From positions 310,001 to 374,000 of the forward strand of contig JACRAY010000005.1 in NCBI GenBank assembly GCA_016213325.1: a stretch of DNA of 64,000 nt, in the 5' to 3' direction. The DNA comes from Burkholderiales bacterium (lineage in GTDB: Bacteria > Pseudomonadota > Gammaproteobacteria > Burkholderiales > Burkholderiaceae_C). The notes under the pieces were generated by a model. It saw nothing but the letters and a program-made list of their open reading frames with translations, made no database searches and had not been told where the DNA came from. Position 1 is the stretch's first letter; the number at the start of each line of letters is the position of its first letter. Of this stretch, positions 1,827-15,893 are shown piece after piece. Both the position numbers and the translations under genes were made by a program.

Positions 1827-2807
1827 ATGAGCAAAGCCGTCCGCATCCGCCAGACCGGCGGTCCCGACATGCTGCAGGTCGAAGACATCGAGGTGGGCCA
1901 GCCCGGCCCGGGCGAGATCCGCATCCGCCACAAGGCGGTGGGCCTGAACTTCATCGACGTGTACCACCGCACCGGGCTGTACCCGCTGCCGTTGCCGGCC
2001 GTGATCGGCGGCGAGGGCGCCGGGGTGGTCGAAGCCGTGGGCGAAGGTGTCACCCACCTGAAGGTCGGTGACCGTGCGGCGTATGCGAGCTCACCCGGCT
2101 CGTACTGCGAAGAGCGCGTGATAAACGCCAAGCACGTCTGCAAGCTGCCCGACGCGGTCAGCTTCGAGGAAGGCGCCGCCATGATGTTGAAGGGCCTGAC
2201 CGCGCAATACCTGCTCAAGCGCACGCAGCCGCAAGGCGGCCTGAAGGCCGGAGACATGGTGCTGTTCCATGCGGCCGCCGGCGGCGTGGGGCTGTTCGCA
2301 TGCCAGTGGGCGAGGGCCATGGGGCTGCAGCTCATCGGCACGGCGGGCAGCGACGAGAAGTGCGCGCTGGCCAGGGAGCACGGGGCCGCGCACGTCATCA
2401 ATTACGCCAGGGAAGACTTCCTCGCGCGCGTGAAGGAACTCACCGGCGGCAAGGGCGTGAAGGTGGTGTACGACTCGGTGGGCAAGGATACATGGGACAA
2501 GTCGCTCGACTGCCTGTCGCCGTTCGGCCTGATGGCCAGCTTCGGCAATTCGTCGGGGCCGGTGCCGCCCTTTGCGCCGGGCATCCTGGGCCCCAAGGGC
2601 TCGCTCTACGTCACGCGCCAGACCCTCTTCACGCACCTTGCCACGCGCGAATCGACGCAGGCCATGGCCGACGACCTGTTCAATGCGGTGACGTCCGGGC
2701 ACATCAAGGTGCGCATCGACCAGCGCTATCCTCTGGAGCAGGTGCAGCAGGCGCACCGTGACCTGGAAGCGCGCAAGACCACCGGCAGCACCGTCCTGAC
2801 GCTGTGA
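1827..2807 (+). CDS. qorA: Quinone oxidoreductase (zeta-crystallin/QorA type)
   Basis: A 326-residue medium-chain reductase that transfers electrons from NADPH to quinones in the cytosol. The N-terminal GroES-like half holds GLNFIDVYHRTGLYP and the IGGEGAGVVEAVG segment. The Rossmann half holds the nucleotide motif HAAAGGVGLFACQWA near residues 147-161. The zinc-binding residues of alcohol dehydrogenases are absent, as expected for zinc-free quinone reductases. The ATG at 1827 follows a strong GAGGAG ribosome site at 1814-1819. Its TGA overlaps the GTG start of the Nudix gene by four bases, so the two are probably translationally coupled. Confidence 0.93.
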   Translation: MSKAVRIRQTGGPDMLQVEDIEVGQPGPGEIRIRHKAVGLNFIDVYHRTGLYPLPLPAVIGGEGAGVVEAVGEGVTHLKVGDRAAYASSPGSYCEERVINAKHVCKLPDAVSFEEGAAMMLKGLTAQYLLKRTQPQGGLKAGDMVLFHAAAGGVGLFACQWARAMGLQLIGTAGSDEKCALAREHGAAHVINYAREDFLARVKELTGGKGVKVVYDSVGKDTWDKSLDCLSPFGLMASFGNSSGPVPPFAPGILGPKGSLYVTRQTLFTHLATRESTQAMADDLFNAVTSGHIKVRIDQRYPLEQVQQAHRDLEARKTTGSTVLTL

Positions 2808-3586
2808 GCACCCTGCGGCCGGATGCGGCCTGGCTGGCGCGGCTGCGCGAGCGGCTCGACCGGCCGCCGCTGAAGCCGCGCGAGCCGCTGTACTGGCGCG
2901 GGCAGGCCATCGGCTCGGTCGAACCCGAAGTGCCTGCCGCGGTCGGCCTGCCCCGCCTTTGGCAGCGCGACGGCGACGGCTGGTCGGTACTCGGCGATAC
3001 GCTCACGGCCAGCCTTGAAACCATCGGCTTGGCCATCGAGTCCGCCGGGCTCGCGCACGTGCGCCGCAACGAACAGCTGGCCGTGTGCGGTCCGCAGGGC
3101 GAAGTGCTGGGCACGGTCGAACGCGGGGTGATCCGCACGCTGGGCATCCCGACGCGGGCGGTCCACCTGCTCGGCTTCGTGCCCGACGGGCGGCAGTGGG
3201 TGCAGCAGCGGTCCTTCAGCAAGGCGAACGACCCCGGCCTGTGGGACACGCTGGTGGGCGGCATGGTGCCGGCCTGCGATTCGCTCGAAGAGGCGCTGCA
3301 ACGCGAGACCTGGGAAGAGGCCGGGCTGCGCCTCGCGGCGCTGCGCGACGTGCGCCCGGGCGGCCAGATACTGACCCGCCGGCCCACCGTGGAGCCCGGG
3401 CCGGGCTACGTGGTGGAACGCATCGACTGGTACCGCTGCGTGGTGCCCGAAGGGATGGTGCCGGACAACCAGGACGGCGAGGTGGCGGCCTTCGCGCTGC
3501 TCGCCATGGGCGAGGTCGCCCGGCGGCTGGAGCGCGACGAATTCACGCCCGAGGCGGCGATGCTGGTGGTGGCGTGCTGCGCCTGA
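2804..3586 (+). CDS. Nudix hydrolase of the DUF4743/thiamine-pyrophosphokinase-related type
   Basis: A 260-residue protein starting with GTG inside the stop of the preceding gene. The first ~110 residues form a DUF4743-like N-terminal region, and the Nudix fold follows. The Nudix box is near residues 150-173 (GGMVPACDSLEEAL then QRETWEEAGL). The REx2EEx core that binds Mg is intact, but the first Glu of the box is Asp. Related proteins such as the Tnr3-like Nudix group act on oxidised or damaged thiamine diphosphate derivatives; that role here is inference. The pairing with a quinone reductase is suggestive of a clean-up function but proves nothing. Confidence 0.82.
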   Translation: MSTLRPDAAWLARLRERLDRPPLKPREPLYWRGQAIGSVEPEVPAAVGLPRLWQRDGDGWSVLGDTLTASLETIGLAIESAGLAHVRRNEQLAVCGPQGEVLGTVERGVIRTLGIPTRAVHLLGFVPDGRQWVQQRSFSKANDPGLWDTLVGGMVPACDSLEEALQRETWEEAGLRLAALRDVRPGGQILTRRPTVEPGPGYVVERIDWYRCVVPEGMVPDNQDGEVAAFALLAMGEVARRLERDEFTPEAAMLVVACCA

Positions 3587-3659
3587 GCCGGGCGCTCCTA
3601 CAGACCCCTGGCTCGGTTGCTTGCACCACGGTGGTGCCGCGCACGGTAAGGTGGGTCGC

Positions 3660-4055
3660 ATGGACAACGGCATGAAGTTCAGGGCCTACATCGTCGAGGA
3701 CAGCCCGACGATCCGCCAGAACCTCATCGAGACGCTGCAGGAACTGGCGCAGGTCGTACCGGTGGGGATTGCGGAGACGGAGCACGAGGGCAAGCGCTGG
3801 CTGGCGCAGAACGACGGGGACTGGGACGTTGCGATCGTCGACCTGTTCCTGCGCGAAGGCAGCGGCCTGAACGTCGTGGAGTCCGTCCGCAACCGCCGCC
3901 CGGAGCAGGTGGTCATCGTCCTCAGCAACCATGCCACCGACGACGTGCGGTGGCGCTGCGAGCAGCTGGGCGCCGATGCGGTGTTCGACAAATCGACGGA
4001 AATCGACGCACTCGTGGAATACTGCCTGAGGCAGCGCAAGTCCGCGCTCCATTGA
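3660..4055 (+). CDS. Single-domain response regulator receiver protein
   Basis: A 131-residue receiver domain with no output domain. All canonical residues are present: the acidic pair in YIVEDSPT (about residues 10-14), the phospho-acceptor Asp in VAIVDLFLREGSG, the switch Ser in VIVLSNHA, and the Lys in AVFDKSTEID. ATG at 3660 is preferred over an in-frame TTG at 3621 because AAGGTGG lies just upstream and the receiver fold starts directly after it. The protein presumably signals by protein-protein contact. The adjacent sensor kinase, 58 bases downstream, is its natural partner, although that kinase looks unable to bind ATP (see findings). Confidence 0.92.
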   Translation: MDNGMKFRAYIVEDSPTIRQNLIETLQELAQVVPVGIAETEHEGKRWLAQNDGDWDVAIVDLFLREGSGLNVVESVRNRRPEQVVIVLSNHATDDVRWRCEQLGADAVFDKSTEIDALVEYCLRQRKSALH

Positions 4056-4113
4056 GCTGCGGGCGCTTGACCTGCCTCAATCTTGCGGGGGAGTCGCAGC
4101 CGATACTGACTGC

Positions 4114-5703
4114 ATGAGCCAGTCCGGCCGGCCCTTCCGGCTCCTCGACTTCTTCAAGCTCACCAGCCTGGTGGCCTTCGCCGCCGCCGCCGTCGTCCTC
4201 TACTCCCTCGAACGCGCCGAGTTCGTCTTCTTCGACGACATGCAGCAGCGCGAGGAAGCCTCCTTTGCCGTCGCACAGGCCGACTTGCTGAGCGCGCAGA
4301 AGGCGGGAGCACGCTCCAGCCTGCTGATGGAGCACGAGGCCGGCCACCTGGCGCTGACCACGGTGATCGGCAACGCACTGTGGGACGCGCACTTCGCACC
4401 GCTGGTCGCGCAGGCGCAGCACATGCCCAAGGTGCCCGGCATCGGCCGGCGCATCCGTGCGCTCGCGGGTTTCGAAGCCACCAACGACGCGGTCCACGCG
4501 ATGATGAAGGGCAGCACGGTCTTCAAGGTGAAGGTCTATGACCTGCGCGGCCTCACCGTGTACTCGTCCGAATTGGCGCAAGTGGGCGAAGACAAGGCAT
4601 CCAACCAGGGTTGGCGCGTGGCCGCCAGCGGCAGGCCCGCCAGCGAAATCGTCCACCGCGAGCGCTTCAGTGCTTTCGAAGGCGAAGTGGAAGACCGCGA
4701 CCTGATCCAGAGTTACGTGCCGGTGCGCCGGCGCGCCGGGGAAGTGGTAGGCGTGTTCGAGATCTACTCGGACGTGACCGCGCTGCTCAGGCACCTGGAA
4801 GCCTCGTCGGAGCATGCGACCAGCCTGGCCGCCGACAACCTGGCCAAGACGCGCGAAGCGTCGAGGGCCAGCCGGCGCGAGGCGGAGACCAACTCCAACC
4901 TGCACTTCGTGGTGGTGTTCGCCCTGCTGGCGGCCCTGTATGCGGTGCAGTACCTGCTGGTGCGGCGCGGCCAGGCCATCATCGACCAGCAGGCCGGCGC
5001 GCGTGAAGCCGCAGCACTCAGGGAGCAGCACTGGCACGGCGAGAAAATGGCGGCGCTCGCCGCCATGGCCGCCAACGCCTCGCACGAAATCGGCAACCCG
5101 CTGGCCATCATCACCGGGCTGGCCGAGGACATCGAGCGCGCCGTGGAGTCGGGCGAGCCCGTGAACCGCCACGCCGAGGGCATCCTCGAACAGACCTGGC
5201 GCATCGCCGAAATGACGCGGCGCATCACCGACTTCGCTTCCGCACGCAGCGAAACGTCGGAGCCGGTGGATGCCAACGAGTTCCTGCAGGCGGTGCGGCA
5301 CTTCCTCAGCTTCGACACGCGCTACCGCATGACCTGGGTGGAAGAAGACCTGCAGCCGCGCCTGCCGCTGTGCAACGCGATCCCCGACCACCTGAACGAG
5401 GTGCTGATGAACCTGCTGCAGGCGTACTCCGAAGCGAGCCTGAAGGCAGGCGCCCTGGTCAAGGTGCATACGAGCAGCCGGGGAGGCGAAGTGACCATCC
5501 GCATCGGCTGCCACGGCACGGACACGGGCGGACCGTGCGACATCGCGGCGACCGATGCCCGCATCGACGCCGCGCGCGCGCGCATCGAAGCCATGGGCGG
5601 CCGGTTCGAAGTGACGGCCACGGCCACCGAGATCCACCTGCCCTGCCACGGCTCGCAGGTGGAAGAAGACGCGCCGCAGGACCTGGCCGATACGCCTGTG
5701 TGA
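4114..5703 (+). CDS. Membrane sensor histidine kinase with degenerate ATP-binding domain
   Basis: A 529-residue two-pass membrane protein. TM1 is about residues 18-34 (TSLVAFAAAAVVLYSL). A periplasmic sensor region of ~220 residues follows, including VKVYDLRGLTVYSSELA as in PAS/dCACHE-like folds. TM2 is about residues 264-284 and is followed by a DHp helix with an intact H-box (NASHEIGNPLAII, His about 324). The catalytic domain is abnormal: the N-box reads EVLMNLLQAYSEAS without the usual Asn, the DxGxG box is replaced by IGCHGTDTGGPCD, and the F and G2 boxes are missing. Only the last strand region (EAMGGRFEV) is recognisable. It may dock or dephosphorylate the neighbouring regulator rather than phosphorylate it. 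Confidence 0.88.
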   Translation: MSQSGRPFRLLDFFKLTSLVAFAAAAVVLYSLERAEFVFFDDMQQREEASFAVAQADLLSAQKAGARSSLLMEHEAGHLALTTVIGNALWDAHFAPLVAQAQHMPKVPGIGRRIRALAGFEATNDAVHAMMKGSTVFKVKVYDLRGLTVYSSELAQVGEDKASNQGWRVAASGRPASEIVHRERFSAFEGEVEDRDLIQSYVPVRRRAGEVVGVFEIYSDVTALLRHLEASSEHATSLAADNLAKTREASRASRREAETNSNLHFVVVFALLAALYAVQYLLVRRGQAIIDQQAGAREAAALREQHWHGEKMAALAAMAANASHEIGNPLAIITGLAEDIERAVESGEPVNRHAEGILEQTWRIAEMTRRITDFASARSETSEPVDANEFLQAVRHFLSFDTRYRMTWVEEDLQPRLPLCNAIPDHLNEVLMNLLQAYSEASLKAGALVKVHTSSRGGEVTIRIGCHGTDTGGPCDIAATDARIDAARARIEAMGGRFEVTATATEIHLPCHGSQVEEDAPQDLADTPV

Positions 5704-5704
5704 C

Positions 5705-7381
5705 TCAGAGCGCGCTGGCTTCGTCGCCGCCGGCCGTCGCCTCCTGCACCGCGCGCAGCCGGCTCGGCGCCAGCGCGCCGGCAGAGTCGAGAATCGGGTA
5801 GGCGATGGAGCAGATGTGCGAGTTGATGCGCTTCAGGTCGCTGATCAGGTCCAGGTGCAGCGAGCTGGTCTCTATGCTCTGCACCGTGTTGTCCGACAGC
5901 CGCGTGAGGTGCGTGCCGGCGTAGGCGCGCTCCAGGTCGCGAAAGCGCGTCTTTTCTTCCAGCAGCTTCTGCGCGTCGCGCACCGAGCCGTTCAGGAACA
6001 CGCTCATGCCGAGCCTGAGGTTGTCCACCAGCCGCGCGTGCAGCTCGCAGATCTCGGCCATGCCGGCGTCGGAGAAGTTGCGGCCCTTGTTGATCTTCTT
6101 GTCCTCGATGTCGATCAGGATGCGCTCGATGATGTCGCCGACCTGCTCCATGTTGATGGTGAAGCTGATGATGTCGGTCCAGCGCCGGCTTTCCTCTTCG
6201 CCCAGCGCCTCGCGCGACACCTTGGTCAGGTAGTACTTGATGGCCGAGTACAGCTCGTCCACCGTGTCGTCCATGCGCCGCAGCTCCTCCGACAGGCGCG
6301 CGTCGTTCTCGCGGATCACGCGCAGCATGCCCAGCAGCATCGTCTCGACGATGTCCGCCTGGTGCAGCGCTTCGCGCGTGGCGCATGAGATGGCCAGCGA
6401 CGGCGTGGCGAGCGCCGTGGGGTCCAGGTGGTGCGGCCGCCCCGCGACGAAGCCGTTGTCGGGCTTGGGCAGCCAGCGCTCGACCCAGAGCGCCACCTTG
6501 CCGGTGAAACCGATGCACAGCAGGGCCACCACGAAGTTGAATGCCAGGTGGAACGACACGACGGTGGTGGCGTTGTCCAGGTAGGGTTGGGTCAACTTGA
6601 GCCACAGGCCGACGAAGGGCATGGCGGCAAGCACGCCGATGGCCTTGAACACCAGGTTGCCCAGCGGCACCTGCCGGGCCTCTTCGCCGGAGCGCATGGT
6701 TACCAGCACCCCCAGCAGGCCGCTGCCGAGGTTGGCGCCCAGCACCAGGCCCAGCGCCACGTCGGGCGGGATGGCGCCGGTGGCCGCGAGCGTGGCCGTC
6801 AGCAGCACGATGGCGAGGCTCGAGTAGGCCAGCACCGTGAGGCCGGCGCCTACGGTGATCTCCAGCAGCAGGTCGCTGGACAGCGTGGCCAGCACCGCCT
6901 TCACGGCGGGCGACTGCACCATGATCTGCGTCGACTCGGCCACCAGTCGCAGCGCCAGCAGCATCAGCCCCAGCCCGATGAGCACTCGGCCGAAGCGGCC
7001 GACGGGGCCGGCCTGCCGCGAGATGAACAGCACCACGCCGACGAAGATGAACAGCGGCGACAGCCACGACAGGTCGAGCGAGAACACCAGCGCCATCAGG
7101 CTGGTGCCCACGTCGGCGCCCAGCATCACCGCCAGCGCGATGGGCAGGGCGACCAGCCCTTGCCCGACGAAAGACGACACGATGAGCGCAGTGGCCGTGC
7201 TCGATTGGACCAGGGCCGTCACGCCCAGCCCGGCCAGGGCTGCCGCCGGCCGCGAGTCGATGCTGCGGGCCAGCACGTGCCTCAGGTTGGCGCCGAAGAC
7301 CCGGAGGATGCCGGTCCTGACCAGATGGGTGCCCCAGACCAGCAGCGCGACGGCGGCCAGCAGGTTCAACAGATGCTTCAT
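5705..7381 (-). CDS. Na/Pi cotransporter family protein with C-terminal PhoU-like domain
   Basis: A 558-residue inner-membrane protein of the NptA/YjbB type. The membrane half (residues ~1-320) has two inverted repeats. The first carries the signature TALVQSSTATALIVSSF, and the second has the weaker AYSSLAIVLL. The cytosolic half (~345-540) is a helical PhoU-like domain (IVETMLLGMLRVIRENDARL, SRRWTDIISFTINMEQVGD). Family members move phosphate coupled to sodium, and YjbB of E. coli exports phosphate. The gene is convergent with the sensor kinase, with one base between the stops, so it has its own promoter upstream of 7381, where an AT-richer stretch is seen. Confidence 0.9.
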   Translation of the reverse strand: MKHLLNLLAAVALLVWGTHLVRTGILRVFGANLRHVLARSIDSRPAAALAGLGVTALVQSSTATALIVSSFVGQGLVALPIALAVMLGADVGTSLMALVFSLDLSWLSPLFIFVGVVLFISRQAGPVGRFGRVLIGLGLMLLALRLVAESTQIMVQSPAVKAVLATLSSDLLLEITVGAGLTVLAYSSLAIVLLTATLAATGAIPPDVALGLVLGANLGSGLLGVLVTMRSGEEARQVPLGNLVFKAIGVLAAMPFVGLWLKLTQPYLDNATTVVSFHLAFNFVVALLCIGFTGKVALWVERWLPKPDNGFVAGRPHHLDPTALATPSLAISCATREALHQADIVETMLLGMLRVIRENDARLSEELRRMDDTVDELYSAIKYYLTKVSREALGEEESRRWTDIISFTINMEQVGDIIERILIDIEDKKINKGRNFSDAGMAEICELHARLVDNLRLGMSVFLNGSVRDAQKLLEEKTRFRDLERAYAGTHLTRLSDNTVQSIETSSLHLDLISDLKRINSHICSIAYPILDSAGALAPSRLRAVQEATAGGDEASAL

Positions 7382-7413
7382 GCTTCAAGCAATCATACGC
7401 CGGGCAGGCCCCG

Positions 7414-9213
7414 CTAGCGCTGCCAGGCGTGGTCCAGCGGCAGCAGCGGCCCCTCGATCGCCCGGAGTTCGACGGTGCCCGCGGCCGCATCGTGGATGGC
7501 ATAGCGCAGCCTGCCGACCCGGTCGCGCCCATAGCCGATCGAGCCGACGCTGACGATGTAGCGCTCGTCGCTCGCCAGCTCGAACGGCCGGTTGTATTCG
7601 AAAGGGTGGACCGCCGCCTCGCCGTACACGGGCGAGCGCTCGCCGAAGATCATCGGCACGTGCACGTGGCCCACGAAGACCAGCCGCCAGTCGCATTCGT
7701 CGAACACGTTCCAGGCCTCCACGGCATAGTCGATGCGCCGCTTCTTCGCCAGCGGCGAGATATGGACGAACAGCACGTCCCCTTCGGCCATGGAATCCGG
7801 CAGTGCGCGCAGGTAGCGCTGCAGCGGCTCGGGCAGGCGCAGGTCGTTGTTCTCGTCGTGGTTGCCGCGCACGCACGGCACCCCGCGCTCGCGCAGGGTG
7901 CGCACGACCTGCTCGTTGCCGCCGCCGCCTTCCACCAGGTCGCCCAGGCAGACGATGCGGTCGCACGACTGGGCCTCGATGTCCGCGAGCGCGGCGAGCA
8001 ATCCCTCGTGGTTGCCGTGGATGTCGGAGATGATCGCGGTGCGCCCGGCCGGCCGGCGCGCGCCCGCCCTCAGCCGGGTTTGCAGCTTTTCGTCATCCGG
8101 CACTTCGCCCTGCGTCTCGTAGCGCACCACCCGCTCGACCTGCTGCACCAGTTCCGCCGCCGTGGTGTCGCCGGCCAGGCGCTGCACCAGCGCGTCGACG
8201 GCGAAGCGGTGGGCCTGCGGCGTGGCGATGGACGCCGCGCCGTGCTCAACCAGTTCCAGCAGCCGGTCGATGCGCGGCTGCAGTTCATGGCGGCCCACAA
8301 GGCCCTCGACCCAGCGCGGCGGGATGCCCGCGAGCCCGAAGCGCGCACCCAGCAAGGCGCCCGCGACTGCGCCGTTCGAGTCGGCATCGCCTCCTTCATG
8401 CACGATGCGCCCTATGCCGTCCTCGAACGACGTGGCGTGGGACAGCGCCCACAACCCCGCTTCGAGTGCGGTGTAGGTGTAGCCGATGCGGTTGGCCTCG
8501 CCTTCGGTCAGGCCCTCGTCCAGGTCCAGCGATTCCAGCGTGCCCGCGGCGCGGTCGAAGCAGGTGCGCACGCCGGCGTCGAAGCGCCCTGCGGCCGACG
8601 CGGCTTGCAGCAGCAGCTCGCCGAGCGGTACGCGGCCCTCCAGCAGGCCGGCCACGAGCAGGCACACCGCTACGCAGGAGGCCGCGCAACGCGGGTCGGC
8701 ATGCGTGATGCGGCTCGCGCGCGCCGCGTGTTCCGCCACGACGTCGGCCCGGTCGAACTGCCACACGCCCAGCACCGACGTGCGCATGACCGCGCCGTTG
8801 GCGGCGGCGCGTTTGCCGCTTTCGGACCAGACGCGGCGCGCGACCTTCTGCGGGTCGCGCAGGTAGTCAGGGTCCAGCAGGACGGCGGCGGTCGTGAACC
8901 CCATGCCGCGGCCCCCCTTCCTGGCCCACTCGTGCAGCCGCACGGCCACGTCGCGCTCGTCGAGCGCGCACTTGTCCAGCAGGCTATCCAGGATGCACAG
9001 CATCTGGTCGGTGTCGTCGGTCCACTCGCCGTTGCTCCAGCGCGATCGGTGCTGGTCGCGCACGATGCCGGCATAGTCGTGCAGCCCCTGGGGGTAGCAA
9101 GCCTGCACGTCGCTGCGCGACATGAACTCGGTGCCGAGCCCCAGCGCGTCGCCGACGGCGTGGCCGTAGACGACGCCCCGGATGCGGTCGGCCAGTGCTG
9201 CGTCCACGTTCAT
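7414..9213 (-). CDS. ADP-ribosylglycohydrolase / calcineurin-like metallophosphoesterase fusion
   Basis: A 599-residue two-domain protein. The N-terminal ADP-ribosylglycohydrolase domain (~1-330) has [10 protein letters not shown], the metal site WTDDTDQ at ~62-68, [11 protein letters not shown] and [18 protein letters not shown] at ~271-288. These residues bind the two Mg ions and ADP-ribose in the DraG/ARH family. The C-terminal phosphoesterase (~390-585) has a full set of motifs: [25 protein letters not shown] and GHVHVP. The likely activities are removal of ADP-ribose from a protein or nucleic acid and hydrolysis of a phosphate ester. Start ATG 9213 overlaps the stop of the J-domain gene (ATGA), placing it third in the Hsp70 operon. 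Confidence 0.88.
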
Positions 9214-10817
9214 CGACCCCGGATGCGCCGGCCGGCCGCCAGCACGAGCCGCATGCACAGCGCCCAGGCCCACCCGAAGGCCAGCAGCCAGGCGGCCCGT
9301 GCTTCGCCCCTGGGTGACGCCGTGACCGCCATCTCCTCCACTACGAACAAGGGCACGAGGGCCATGCCGTAGCCGATGACCATCGCCACCCAGGGGGGGC
9401 GGCGCTCGAAAAACCCGTTGGCCACCAGCGCCCACATGGAGCACAGCAACAGCGCTCCCGCGGCAGCGTGGGATGCTTTCCCGGGTGCCAGCAAGGCGAC
9501 GGCCAGCAGCACCGCCACCGGGTAGCCCCAGCCGCGGCGAAAAGCCCGTTCGTAGCGCCCGGCATCGCGGGCGCGCCAGCCAAGGCTCCAAACGGCGTCC
9601 TCGCCCTTCAGTGCGAACAGGCCCAGCAGGGCCGCCGCCAGGAAATTGAGCGGGAAGGCCATGCGAAACGAAATGCCCAGGGCAACGCCACCGAACAGCG
9701 TGACCAGCGCCATGACGACGAGGCGATTGCTGGTGATGTCCTCCGCGCGGATGCCGGGAAGCGCCCACACCGCGACGAGGGCGCATGCCACCGCGCACGC
9801 GAGGATGGCCGCATCCGGCCAGGTGGCCGACCACGTGCAGGCGAACACCAGCGGCGCGGCGGCCACCACCCAGCCGCCCTTGCGCCAGGGATGGGTCTCC
9901 CAGCCGGCTCGCCAGGACGACCATCGCAGCTCGAGCAGCTCCCAGCCCAGGCAGGCCGCCACCACCCCCGCGGCGACAACCGCCGCCAGCCACGGCTGCG
10001 GCAACAACAGCCACGACAGCAGCGCGAGGGCCAGCGCGAGCAGTGCGTGCCATGCATATGGGCGCGGTGCGGCAACGCAACGCTGCCACCATTGCGCCGT
10101 ACGGGGGTCGACCTCGTGCTCGATCACTTCCGGGGCGGCGTGTTCCATGCCGCGCAGCAGCAGCCGCATCTCGCGCACCACCGACTTGTCGAGGGCGATC
10201 CAGCGGAAGTGCGCAGGGCGGCAGGGGCCCAGCAGCGCGCGGGTCGCCCGCTGGCGTGCCTTGCCTGCCATCACGCTTTCGAGTTCGCGCCGCGTTTCGC
10301 GCGCGCGCAACCGGGCCGCCAGCCGGCCTGGCTGCTCGCGCCAGCCGAAGTGGGATGCCGCGCGTCCCGCCAGCAGCATCGGCAGGTCCGGCGCAGTCTC
10401 CAGCGTAGCTGCGAGCGCCTGTTCGAAATGCTCGCGCGTTGCCAGGTTCCCCAGCGCCTCACCCGCAAGCACCTCGTCCAGCGCGTCGGCCGCTGCTGCG
10501 TCGCCTTGCGTACGCAGCAGCTGCAGCAGGTTCCCCAGGGCGACGATCGCCTGTTCCTCCGGCGCAATCCGGGGCTTGAAGTCGGTTGGCTCGCGTGTCG
10601 GTGCAGCCGGCGGGGGCTCTTCGTGGCGCAGCGGAGGCGGCGGTGCCGCCGGCATGCCCTGGGTGAGCGCCAGCGCCTGCTCGTACGCCAGCCGCAGCAG
10701 CTGGAAGCCTTGCGGGTCGTCTTCGGGATGCGCCTGCTTCAGCCGGCGCGCATAGGCTTTGCGGATCGCGCGCGCGTCCTCGGTCGGTGCGATGCCGAGG
10801 ACGTCCCAGGCCGTCAT
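9210..10817 (-). CDS. Membrane-anchored J-domain protein (DjlB/DjlC-like)
   Basis: A 535-residue protein with an N-terminal J domain (residues ~1-50) followed by a soluble linker. From about residue 250 there is a strongly hydrophobic C-terminal half with roughly eight membrane segments. The J-domain tripeptide is His-Pro-Glu (residues 30-32, [20 protein letters not shown]) instead of His-Pro-Asp. The [13 protein letters not shown] segment matches the DjlB/DjlC group, which are the dedicated partners of HscC in E. coli. ATG 10817 is preferred; a GTG at 10823 directly abuts the hscC stop and is also possible. The gene sits between hscC and the ADPRH fusion with overlapping or touching ends, so it is almost certainly co-expressed. 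Confidence 0.85.
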
Positions 10818-10823
10818 GTGCAC

Positions 10824-12521
10824 TCAGAGATAGGTCTCGTTGTCGATGTCGTCCAGGATGCGCTGCATGGCGGCGCGCGCTTCCCGGCACTCGTGCGGGT
10901 CCTGCCGGTCCAGCGTGAGCAGGAACCTGCTGATGAGGCGGCCGACGGCCTCGCGCCGGTCGCCCAGGCTCTCCTGGTAGACGCGGTCCGCGCGTTCGAC
11001 GATGGCGCGATTTTCCGCCAGTTGCCGCGGATGGATCTTGAGCGCCGCGAGCTTGCGCAGCGACTCGGCCACCTCGACGGGGGTAAGCGCGCCGGGGCTG
11101 CCCTCGATCACCACGCTGGCGGTGCGGCCGGTGCTGTGCACGCTGGCCTCGACTTCCAGCAGTCCGTTGATGTCGTAGGTGAAGCGCACGTCGATCGTCT
11201 CCATGCCGGCGGGGCGCGCCGGCACCGGCACCGTCACCTCGCCCAGGAAGACGTTCTCGTCGACGTTGCGCGACTCGCCCTGGAAGATGCGCGCGGTGAT
11301 TTCGCGCTGGTTGTCGCGCGCCGTGGTGAACGTCTTGCTGCGGCTGGCGGGCACGACGGTGTTGCGCTCGATGATGGGCGAGAAGCTGATTTGCAGGTGG
11401 CCGGGCGCGACTTCATGCGCGCTGTCGATGCCCAGCGAGTAGGGGCTGACGTCGGTGAGCACCACTTCTTCGAGCGCCGCGTCGCGTGCCTTGAGGCCGG
11501 CTTGCACGCCCGCGCCCAGCGCCACCACTTCATCGGGGTTCAGGCCGGCGCTGGGGATGCGGCCGAACATCTTCGCCACCAGGCTGCGCACCATCGGCAT
11601 GCGCGTGGCGCCGCCGGCCATCACGATGCGGTCGAGCCCGCCGGAGCGGATGTGCGCGTCGCGCAGGGCGCGTTCCACCGGTGCGCGCGCGCGTGCCAGC
11701 AGCGGTGCGCTCAAGGCTTCGAACTGCTGGGCGGTGACCGTCCACTCGCGCTCGCCGCCGCCATCGAGCCGCACCCGCATCACGGCCGACGGCTCGGTGG
11801 ACAGGCGCCGCTTGGCGCGCTCGGCCTGCTCGCGCAGCGTGGCGCGCACCGCAGGCGGCAGCCGGGTCTCGTCCAGCCCCAGTTCGCGTGCGCACTCGCG
11901 CACCAGCAGCACAGCGAAGTCCTCGCCGCCCAGGAAGTTGTCGCCGGCGCTGGCGCGCACCTCCATCACGCCTTCGAACATCTCCAGCACTGACACGTCG
12001 AAGGTGCCGCCGCCGAGGTCGAACACCAGGAAGCACGACTCGCGGCCCAGCTCGTGCAGCCCGTACGCAAGCGCCGCCGCAGTCGGCTCGTTCAGCAGGC
12101 GGCCGACCTTGAGCCCGGCCAGCTCGCCCGCTGCGCGCGTGGCCTTGCGCTGCGCATCGCTGAAGTACGCGGGCACGGTGATCACCGCTTCGTCGACTTC
12201 GCAGCCCAGCGCCGCTTCGGCGTCGGCCTTGAGCGAACGCAGCACCAGCGCCGACAATTCTTCGGGCCGGAACGTGCGTTCGCCGAGCTGCAGGGCGCGC
12301 GTCGTGCCCATGTAGCGCTTGAAGACGGCGGCAGTGCTTTCGGGATGGGTCAGCAGGCGTTCGCGTGCCGCGAGTCCCACCAGCACTTCGCCGGCTTCGT
12401 CGACGGCCACCACGGAAGGCGTGAGCAGCTGGCCGAGCGCGTTGGGAATGAGCCGGGCCGCGCCGTCGCACCAGGCGCAGGCCAGGCTGTTCGTGGTGCC
12501 GAGATCGATGCCGACGATCAT
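10824..12521 (-). CDS. hscC: Hsp70-family chaperone HscC
   Basis: A 565-residue Hsp70. The nucleotide-binding domain shows GIDLGTTNSLA at residues 4-14, FDLGGGTFDVSVL near ~190, and VMAGGATRMPMV near ~300. A substrate-binding beta domain (TDVSPYSLGID, TFTTARDNQREI) and a short helical lid follow. At ~565 residues and without a C-terminal EEVD-type tail it is shorter than DnaK (~640) and matches HscC (Hsp62). HscC in E. coli works with J proteins DjlB/DjlC and affects sigma-70 activity and cadmium sensitivity. The next gene encodes exactly such a J protein. It is the first gene of a three-gene minus-strand operon. Confidence 0.92.
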   Translation of the reverse strand: MIVGIDLGTTNSLACAWCDGAARLIPNALGQLLTPSVVAVDEAGEVLVGLAARERLLTHPESTAAVFKRYMGTTRALQLGERTFRPEELSALVLRSLKADAEAALGCEVDEAVITVPAYFSDAQRKATRAAGELAGLKVGRLLNEPTAAALAYGLHELGRESCFLVFDLGGGTFDVSVLEMFEGVMEVRASAGDNFLGGEDFAVLLVRECARELGLDETRLPPAVRATLREQAERAKRRLSTEPSAVMRVRLDGGGEREWTVTAQQFEALSAPLLARARAPVERALRDAHIRSGGLDRIVMAGGATRMPMVRSLVAKMFGRIPSAGLNPDEVVALGAGVQAGLKARDAALEEVVLTDVSPYSLGIDSAHEVAPGHLQISFSPIIERNTVVPASRSKTFTTARDNQREITARIFQGESRNVDENVFLGEVTVPVPARPAGMETIDVRFTYDINGLLEVEASVHSTGRTASVVIEGSPGALTPVEVAESLRKLAALKIHPRQLAENRAIVERADRVYQESLGDRREAVGRLISRFLLTLDRQDPHECREARAAMQRILDDIDNETYL

Positions 12522-12561
12522 GTGGGCCCCCAGGTGTCTGCGGGGCGCCCATTATTTCACC

Positions 12562-13053
12562 CTAGCGCGCTTTTCGCACCCGCAGCAGCTCGTCGAGGAT
12601 GAGGCCGATGGCGCCGATGGTGATCGCGCTGTCGGCCACGTTGAAGGCCGGGAAGTACCAGCCGCCGTAGTGGAACTGCAGGAAGTCCACCACGTAGCCG
12701 TGCAGCAGCCGGTCGACCACGTTGCCGACGGCGCCGCCCAGGATGCACGCGAGCGAGAACGCGAACAGCTTCTGGTGCGAGTGCGAGCGCAGCAGCCACA
12801 GGATGAAGCCCGTGGCCAGCACGCCGATGCCGGTGAAGAACCAGCGCTGCCAGCCCGAGGCCGCGGCCAGGAAGGAGAACGCAGCGCCCGTGTTGTGCGC
12901 GCGCACGACGTTGAAGAAGGGCAGCACGTAAGTGGAGTCCCCGAGCTTGTAGTAGCCCAGGATCAGCACCTTGGTGAACTGGTCGGCGATCAGGATGATC
13001 AGCGCCAGGCCCAGCCAGGGCAGCATGCTGCCCGCTGCGTTGCCGCGTGCCAT
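12562..13053 (-). CDS. lspA: Lipoprotein signal peptidase (signal peptidase II)
   Basis: A 163-residue four-TM aspartyl protease that cleaves the signal peptide of prolipoproteins in the inner membrane after lipid attachment. The catalytic Asp pair is visible in [12 protein letters not shown] (about residue 113) and [11 protein letters not shown] (about residue 139). The conserved Asn of [14 protein letters not shown] precedes them. ATG 13053 shares one base with the ileS stop (TGATG), giving the usual ileS-lspA order with translational coupling. Family length is ~160 residues. Confidence 0.97.
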
Positions 13054-15893
13054 CAGGCGTGCACCCGCGGTTCGCCCGCGCCGAACAGGTTCGCCACGCA
13101 GCGCCCGCAGATGGTGGGATGCGCCGGGTCGCTGCCCACGTCGGGCCGCCAGTGCCAGCAGCGGTCGCACTTGGTGTCGGCGGACGGCACGGCCTGCACG
13201 GCGAGTTCGTCACCCGGCTTCAGTTCCACGGCCGACGTGATGAAGACGAACTTCAGGTCGTCGCCCAGTGCGGCCAGCAGCGCGTAGTCTTCCGCAGGCG
13301 CCGTCAGCACCAGGTTGGCCTGCAGTGACGAGCCCACCTGGCCCCGCTCGCGCAGTGCCTCGATCTCCTTGTTGGCGATGCCGCGGATCTCGTTGATGCG
13401 GTTCCACTTCGCCAGCAGGTCGGTGTCGGGGCTGCCGATCCTGGCGTATTCCTCCAGGAAGATCGAGTCGGAGTCGCCGAAGATCTTCCACGCCTCTTCC
13501 GCCGTGAAGCTGAGGAAGGGCGCCATCCAGCGCAGCATGGCATGCGTGATGTTCCACAGCGCGGTCTGCGCGCTGCGGCGCGCATGCGACTTGGGCGCCG
13601 TTGTGTACAGGCGGTCCTTCAGGATGTCGAGGTAGAACGCGCCCAGGTCTTCCGAGCAGTACACCTGCAGCTTGGCCACCACCGGGTGGAACTCGTAGAC
13701 CTCGTAGTGAGCGAGCACCTCGGCCTGGAACTGCGCGGCGCGCGACAGCGCGTAGCGGTCGATCTCCAGCAGCTCGCCCAGCGGCACGGCGTCCTTGGCG
13801 GGGTCGAAGTCGCTCACGTTCGCCAGCAGGAAGCGCAGCGTGTTGCGGATGCGCCGGTAGGCGTCGACCACGCGCGCCAGGATCTTGTCGTCGCCGGCGA
13901 TGTCGCCCGAGTAGTCGGAAGCCGCCACCCACAGGCGGATGATTTCGGCGCCCAGCTTCTTCCACGTCTCCTGCGGATCGACCCCGTTGCCCAGCGACTT
14001 GCTCATCTTGCGGCCCTGGCTGTCCACCGTGAAGCCGTGCGTGAGCAGGCCGCGGTAGGGTGCGCGGCCGTACATGGCGCAGGCGGTCAGGAGCGAGCTG
14101 TGGAACCAGCCGCGGTGCTGGTCGTGGCCTTCCAGGTACAGGTCGGCCTCGGGGCCGTCCTCGTGCGCCGAGCCCGGGTGCGAGCCCTTCAGCACCGTGG
14201 TGTGCGTCGTGCCCGAGTCGAACCACACCTCGAGGATATCGGTGCTCTTGGTGTAGTCGGCCGCGTCCGCGGCTGCGCCGACCCTGGCCAGGATGTCGGC
14301 AGCGCTTGCCTTGCTCCACGCCTCGATGCCGCCGGCTTGCACCATGTCGGCCGCCACGTCCAGGATCTCCATGGTCTTCGGGTGCAGGTCGTGCGTGTCG
14401 CGGTGAAGGAAGAAGGGCAGCGGCACGCCCCAGCTGCGCTGGCGGCTGATGCACCAGTCGGGCCGGCCCGCGATCATGTCGCGCAGCCGCGCCTGCCCGT
14501 TCTCGGGGTAGAAGCTGGTTTCCTCGATGGCCTTCAGCGCCATCCTGCGCAGGGTTTCGGGCGCCTTGTCCTTCGTGAACACGCCTTCGCCCTCGTCCAT
14601 GCGGATGAACCACTGCGCCGCGGCGCGGTAGATCACCGGGGTCTTGTGGCGCCAGCAGTGCGGGTAGCTGTGGACGATGCCCTCGGTGGCGAACAGCCGG
14701 CCGGCCTTGTCGATGGTGTCGATGATGTGCGGCACCGACTTCCAGATGTTCTCGCCGCCGAACAGCGCGAAGTCGCTGGCGTAGGAGCCGTTGCCCTGCA
14801 CCGGGTTCAGGATGTCGTCGTACTTCATCCCGTGCGCGACGCAGCTGTTGAAGTCGTCCAGGCCGTAGGCCGGCGACGAGTGCACGATGCCGGTGCCGTC
14901 TTCGGCCGTGGCGTAGTCGGCCAGGTACACCGGCGACAGGCGTCGGAAGCCTGGGTCCACGTCGTACAGCGGGTGGCGGAAGTTCAGGCCACCCAGCTTC
15001 CCGCCCTTGGCCGTGGCGACCACCTTGCCTTCCAGCTGGTAGCGCGCCAGCACCTTGTCGACCAGCGTCTCGGCCACGATGATCTGCCCGCGCGGCGTGT
15101 CGACCAGCGCGTAGTCGAGCTCCGGGTTCAGGTTGAGCGCCTGGTTGGCCGGGATGGTCCACGCGGTGGTGGTCCAGATCATCGCGAAGATGGGCTTGCC
15201 CGCATCGCCGCCGCCGAACGCTGCCACGACTTCCTGCGGCTCGTCGGCCGCGAAGCCCACGTCCAGCGTCTGCGACTTCTTGTCGGCGTACTCGATCTCG
15301 AACTCGGCCAGCGACGAGCCGCAGTCGAAGCACCAGTACACCGGCTTCAGGCCGCGATACACGAAGCCGCGCTCGATCACGCGCTTGAACGCGCGGATCT
15401 CGTCGGCCTCGTTCACGAAGTCCATGGTGCGGTACGGGTGGTCCCAGTCGCCCAGCACGCCCAGTCGCTTGAAGTCGGCGCGCTGGATGTCGATCTGCTC
15501 GGTGGCGTAGGCGCGGCTTTTCGCCTGCATCTCGTCGCGCGGCAGGTTGCGGCCGTGCTTCTTCTCGATGGCGTTCTCGATCGGCAGGCCGTGGCAGTCC
15601 CAGCCCGGGATGTAGGCCGCGTCCAGCCCTTTCAGCTGGCGCGCCTTCACGATCATGTCCTTCAGGACCTTGTTGACGGCGTGGCCCATGTGGATCTGGG
15701 CGTTGGCGTAGGGCGGCCCGTCGTGCAGCACGAACTTCTGGCGGCCCTGGCGCGCCACGCGCAGGCGCTTGTACAGGCCCTGGTCTTCCCACTCCTTCAC
15801 CCACGCGGGCTCGCGCTTGGGCAGGTCGCCACGCATCGGGAACGGCGTGTCGGGCAGGTTGAGGGTGGCGCGGTAGTCGGTCTTGTCTGTCAT
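13053..15893 (-). CDS. ileS: Isoleucyl-tRNA synthetase
   Basis: A 946-residue class I synthetase that charges tRNA-Ile and edits misactivated valine. Motifs in order: [13 protein letters not shown] (HIGH motif as HMGH, residues 68-71), the CP1 editing domain with [22 protein letters not shown] near 626, and a C-terminal zinc finger [10 protein letters not shown] with CGRC near the end. ATG 15893 ([18 protein letters not shown]) is chosen because AAAGG lies eight bases upstream and related proteins begin the same way. An upstream in-frame ATG at 15917 lacks support. It lies between ribF and lspA in the same direction. Confidence 0.97.

Follow-up and report, generated by a model that had tools for sequence, protein, structure and literature searches.

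The window (the whole 64,000-nucleotide stretch of Burkholderiales bacterium DNA analysed here) carries on its minus strand three genes lying head to tail, in the order hscC, a membrane J-protein gene and a gene for a fusion of an ADP-ribosylglycohydrolase with a metallophosphoesterase (ARG-MPE). This triad forms a single 5.1-kb insert exactly between lspA and a Na/Pi transporter gene, and it occurs again, rearranged, in a betaproteobacterial metagenome-assembled genome (MAG) of another family. The cluster hints at a repair unit for ADP-ribosylated molecules, short of proof. Our tentative reading (probability roughly 0.4) is that of a horizontally gained mobile module that would reverse ADP-ribosylation and restore the modified target, with an Hsp70 in the chaperone position.

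Organisation and insertion of the gene cluster

The hscC gene (10824..12521, minus strand) encodes an HscC-type Hsp70 of 565 amino acids (aa), the J-protein gene (9210..10817, minus strand) a product of 535 aa counted from its ATG, and the ARG-MPE gene (7414..9213, minus strand) a product of 599 aa. The original prediction had the coordinates of all three right, and its identification of the products as HscC, a J protein and ARG-MPE is supported by Pfam matches and sequence identity. It also described the genes as touching or overlapping. This is so for the J-protein stop and the ARG-MPE start, which share a 4-nt ATGA overlap in the sequence (9210..9213, minus strand), and not for hscC and the J gene, where 6 nt separate the hscC stop from the J-protein ATG; an alternative GTG start at 10823 would adjoin hscC.

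lspA was found in 38 of 40 same-genus genomes, and it directly neighbours the Na/Pi transporter gene in nine of the ten for which the lspA region was fetched. Comparison of the sequence with these genomes places the upstream edge of the insert in the 40 nt that separate the lspA stop from hscC (12522..12561, minus strand). The downstream edge is the leader of the Na/Pi transporter gene (7382..7413, minus strand), which, compared by eye, resembles (GGCGTATxATTGCTT) the leaders of same-genus genomes without the insert. Searches of 36 further genomes of the genus gave no full-length ARG-MPE; several of these assemblies are only 69-82% complete, and one genome (G731) has an ARG-only match with 34% identity.

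A second triad and its distribution

Scanning one genome per species with exact peptide patterns, which may miss distant fusions, returned 34 loci, among them one (L005, the MAG mentioned above) with the full triad. Its proteins are 79% (HscC), 49% (J protein) and 65% (ARG-MPE) identical to those of the window. There, hscC and the J gene lie on one strand and the ARG-MPE gene is divergent, with the three still together, so the linkage has survived a rearrangement. A search of 98 genomes of the L005 family gave no HscC but that of L005; the HscC of the window genome is absent from that set, thus the families of the two genomes differ. As the trio recurs as a linked group, in a different order, in a second genome and forms one clean insert here, the cluster is more than chance and the three-gene unit of the original prediction is real. 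That prediction would have been undermined had the third gene been found next to hscC only in this strain; L005 shows otherwise, and a strain-private accident is ruled out. The two triads are best read as the outcome of one assembly event, followed by inheritance or transfer with rearrangement, and not as two independent origins. In L005, a second ARG gene, distantly related, is located about 2.2 kb past the J gene of the triad (L005:3215-3997, minus strand; PF03747, 6.9e-34).

Closer to the window genome, full-length ARG-MPE was not found in 149 other genomes of the family (E up to 1e-30), the J protein was found only in its own genome among 150 (E up to 1e-10), and HscC in seven of the 150, its own included (E up to 1e-120). 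Among 60 genus genomes, HscC was found in two (E up to 1e-150), namely its own and G1143 at 59%. Order-wide (300 genomes) and class-wide (274 genomes) samples gave the fusion in its own genome only; at most four candidates per genome were scored in the first pass of these searches, so misses are possible.

The ARG-MPE fusion protein

The fusion protein matches PF03747 (ADP_ribosyl_GH, E-value 5.8e-65) at residues 13-300 and PF12850 (Metallophos_2, E-value 1.5e-14) at residues 392-526. It consists of an ARG domain (about 1-325), a helical linker predicted with low confidence (about 330-388) and an MPE domain (about 389-599). Judged from sequence, both enzyme domains keep their catalytic motifs, these being TDDT (65-68), TH (170-171) and GGDADS (274-279) in the ARG domain, and DIH (397-399), GDLV (424-427), GNHD (450-453), VH (483-484) and GHVH (515-518) in the MPE domain. 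The latter five make up the usual MPE set. TDDT, TH and GGDAD are nearly invariant (at least 90%) across a 21-row ARG alignment that includes one MPE-only row (L007).

The MPE domain resembles an Ap4A (diadenosine tetraphosphate) hydrolase of the SapH/YfcE type, with 22-32% identity to the three proteins compared (SapH-type Ap4A hydrolase/phosphodiesterase and YfcE), from which it differs in being joined to an ARG domain by the helical linker. The ARG domain is distinguished from the DraG, ARH3 and Tri1 ADP-ribosylhydrolases by its fused MPE and by scores far under the NCBIfam cut-offs (94.6 against 490 bits for Tri1, 94.0 against 337 bits for DraG). In the ARG tree, the window and L005 domains are sisters (support 100/98). 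An Achromatium genome (L004) also has a fused ARG-MPE; a single origin of the window, L005 and L004 fusions is neither shown nor rejected (p-AU 0.053). In a Propionivibrio MAG (L007:3351-5665, plus strand), the two domains are encoded by separate genes with a 4-nt overlap, the ARG being extended by about 180 residues at its N terminus and the MPE being of the same type.

The neighbourhoods of related ARG genes bear on the substrate. Neighbour genes, predicted with a home-made gene caller, were surveyed in 30 of 31 single-ARG loci (L037 left out), and since the ARG gene was uncalled in L030, 29 loci remained. In two of these, the RNA 2'-phosphotransferase KptA (PF01885, E-values 6.4e-37 and 8e-31) is encoded upstream of the ARG gene on the same strand: in a Chloroflexi MAG (L006:9103-9681), at a distance of 308 nt, and in Nostoc (L015:2128-2673), at about 750-760 nt. 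The proximity of KptA to two related ARGs raises RNA ends as a rival substrate. The ARG clade would then reverse or process Tpt1/KptA products, either RNA ADP-ribosylated at its 5'-phosphate or ADP-ribose 1'',2''-cyclic phosphate (Appr>p), the MPE would open or remove the phosphate, and HscC and the J protein would serve another purpose. The L006 ARG is placed as sister to the window and L005 ARGs in two trees (90/83 and 86/93; node not starred), and by analogy the ARH-like hydrolase SCO5809, for which removal of KptA-made 5'-phosphate ADP-ribose from RNA is described (PMC11833690), may offer a precedent. Nevertheless, KptA is absent in and beside the triad, a tblastn search with one KptA over 111 loci matched L006 and L015 only, and the neighbour count comes from the home-made caller with no background rate for comparison. 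We regard this alternative as rather unlikely. The 96 neighbour proteins from the 29 loci include no family with more than two members, leaving a general function read from ARG neighbours unsupported.

HscC and the membrane J protein

The Hsp70 of the window matches PF00012 (E-value 8.2e-135), shares 46% identity with E. coli HscC across 550 aa and falls within the HscC clade with support of 100/100, and not with DnaK/HscA-like Hsp70s, apart from the Hsp70s of L101-L103 (38-39% identity) and as sister to the L005 HscC (97/100). Its length lies within the 550-580 aa given for the subfamily (PMC8215388), so that clade placement, length and an adjacent DjlB/DjlC-type J protein all agree with membership. 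A J-like match (E-value 0.004 or better) sits beside hscC in each of the 12 further loci examined, among them L005 and also L048, where hscC and the J gene are divergent. The 2021 review just cited credits HscC with cadmium and UV resistance by an unknown mechanism.

The Pfam DnaJ match in the J protein is below threshold (21.8 bits against a cut-off of 27.8). Over residues 2-54 it nonetheless shares 49-54% identity with the J domains of E. coli DjlB and DjlC (50-53 residues), and the J domain is N-terminal with HPE instead of HPD, as in DjlB (FHPETDPQGF) and DjlC (CHPETDPQGF). HPE is described as the sole tolerated replacement of HPD in a 2026 review, which names DjlB and DjlC as carriers (PMC13254874). 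In the structure model, helices at residues 15-28 and 35-52 have a pLDDT of about 80; the model is poor overall (pLDDT 55, two sequences) and was used for the J domain only. Unlike DjlB and DjlC, which are characterised by a single membrane segment (DjlC has one in the hydropathy scan), the window J protein has about eight hydrophobic segments above threshold, starting at residue 253. It is 48.5% identical to the L005 J protein over 511 aa.

The parallel with E. coli HscC and DjlB/DjlC drawn in the original prediction is borne out by these identities, both systems combining an HscC-type Hsp70 with an HPE-type J domain. The E. coli locus differs in carrying DUF1266 and Sel1 genes and rihA, and no ARG-MPE is annotated in 14 kb around hscC of E. 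coli K-12.

Comparison with predicted ARG-centric systems

Systems that combine an ARG, a phosphatase and often a peptide-binding chaperone have been predicted in several bacterial lineages (Iyer et al., 2022; PMC9503650, section 3.8). According to that section, slightly more than 55% of them have the phosphatase fused to the ARG or encoded next to it, calcineurin-like enzymes included, and a Nudix or WYL regulator occurs in more than 42% and is thus optional. The role proposed from comparative genomics is the reversal of ADP-ribosylation that viruses or toxins inflict on host proteins, in which the chaperone would bind targets that are modified and possibly misfolded (PMC9503650). The original prediction knew of no described system with this composition; the combination of ARG, phosphatase and chaperone had in fact been predicted in 2022, though Hsp70, DnaJ, DnaK and HscC do not occur in the main text of that paper.

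Like these systems, the window cluster has an ARG with intact catalytic motifs, a phosphatase (here in the same polypeptide), an added chaperone gene and a patchy occurrence, and its insert carries no coupled ADP-ribosyltransferase; none was found among the insert genes and flanking proteins scanned (2804-13170). Unlike them, it pairs an Hsp70 with a membrane J protein in place of a vWA, SseB or TY-chaperone protein, and the insert is without a Nudix/WYL regulator, nuclease or ARPP. As the named chaperone families are absent from the insert, the triad is filed as a variant of the predicted ARG, phosphatase and chaperone kind and not as a proven member. In the literature search, HscC was not found together with either of the other two search terms, and the text of PMC7050489 covered by a term search mentions neither phosphatase nor Hsp70. 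A Prevotella plasmid (L053:1-8921) carries an ARG 42% identical to that of the window near a second ARG, a VWA protein, a Ser/Thr kinase and a TerY-C protein, a neighbourhood that resembles the published ARG-centric ones.

Proposed function

In a de-ADP-ribosylation module, the ARG domain would cleave the glycosidic bond of an ADP-ribosylated protein or RNA 5'-phosphate end, and the fused SapH/YfcE-type MPE would hydrolyse the freed ADP-ribose or its phosphorylated derivative, so that the product is removed. The membrane-embedded DjlB/DjlC-type J protein may direct HscC to modified clients at the membrane that are misfolded or held in complexes, and clients bound by HscC would then be de-modified and refolded. 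ADP-ribosylated or phosphorylated clients were also envisaged in the original prediction, and the chaperone may handle them. A link to phages or toxins may likewise be proposed. The more specific version, a membrane-anchored Hsp70 machine dedicated to ADP-ribosylation damage, in which the J protein recruits HscC, HscC opens the clients and ARG-MPE strips and destroys the ADP-ribose, is in our view unlikely. Through such a machine, an HscC chaperone would gain a defined chemistry, and the predicted ARG conflict systems would have a counterpart built on Hsp70. With HscC tied to an enzyme predicted to remove ADP-ribose, the natural gene cluster offers a hypothesis, direct and open to test, on what one HscC machine works on, and it would extend computationally predicted ADP-ribosylation countermeasures to the Hsp70/J family.

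Several observations weigh against such a module. Only two triads are known from these searches, probably from one assembly event, and the J protein of L005 has NPE in place of HPE, which may weaken J function and counts against its full conservation. No regulator of the published kinds is present in the insert; the Nudix-like gene nearby (2804-3586) belongs to the site and not to the insert, being present also in L089-L091, which are without the insert. The G+C content (70-72% in the three genes, about 68% in flanking genes) is no strong sign of foreign origin. No full-length ARG-MPE was found on the plasmids, phages or viral contigs searched, on which result plasmid or phage cargo was discarded as an explanation, and PADLOC 2.0.0 gave no family for any of the three proteins (E up to 0.001), on which a known defence system was likewise discarded.

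ARG-MPE is moreover not a general partner of HscC, and HscC-J pairs without it are the rule. Apart from the window and L005, it is missing from 12 of 12 HscC loci (13.7-19 kb each), which comprise the six other HscC genomes of the family, the one other found among the genus genomes, four of 18 plasmid records and E. coli, and an HscC-wide partnership was rejected accordingly. The count of ARG-MPE beside HscC-J pairs proposed with the original prediction gains L005 and finds none in these 12. Conversely, searches of the L004 and L007 genomes gave no HscC (best match 41-42%), and the HscC clade does not include the best Hsp70s of these two. ARG-MPE can thus exist without HscC and the reverse, as far as the assemblies are complete.

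This separate occurrence, with just two triads that are sisters in both the ARG and HscC trees, would also suit a history in which HscC-J and ARG-MPE are functionally unrelated, were joined once and have been inherited together. The linkage has, on the other hand, been kept across about 21% divergence in HscC and 35% in ARG-MPE and through a change of order, and the J and ARG-MPE genes overlap by 4 nt in the window; we hold such a passenger relationship to be doubtful.

The shared gene cluster would also fit self-regulation, in which ARG-MPE would free HscC or the J protein itself of an inhibitory modification. For the Hsp70 BiP, inactivation by a reversible covalent modification is described (PMC4739761); the same source, whose authors include earlier proponents of ADP-ribosylation, reattributes that modification to AMPylation, so that self-regulation has little precedent. 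The insert contains no modifier gene, and we consider this explanation improbable.

Other features of the insert and related loci

A consensus scan of the lspA-hscC gap found no sigma-70 promoter for hscC, which is weak evidence at 70% G+C and leaves a promoter belonging to the insert itself unsupported. No known structured RNA was detected at the gathering threshold within 5600-14000. In two Cytophagales (L014:9242-9964 and L016:7505-8236), a protein of about 241-244 aa without a Pfam match is encoded directly upstream of the ARG gene, the two being alike by eye. The tenth same-genus genome (L093) carries a different insert, of 1.8 kb, at the junction of lspA and the Na/Pi transporter gene (L093:2299-4101), which encodes a 555-aa open reading frame judged by eye to be reductase-like; the site may therefore accept inserts repeatedly.
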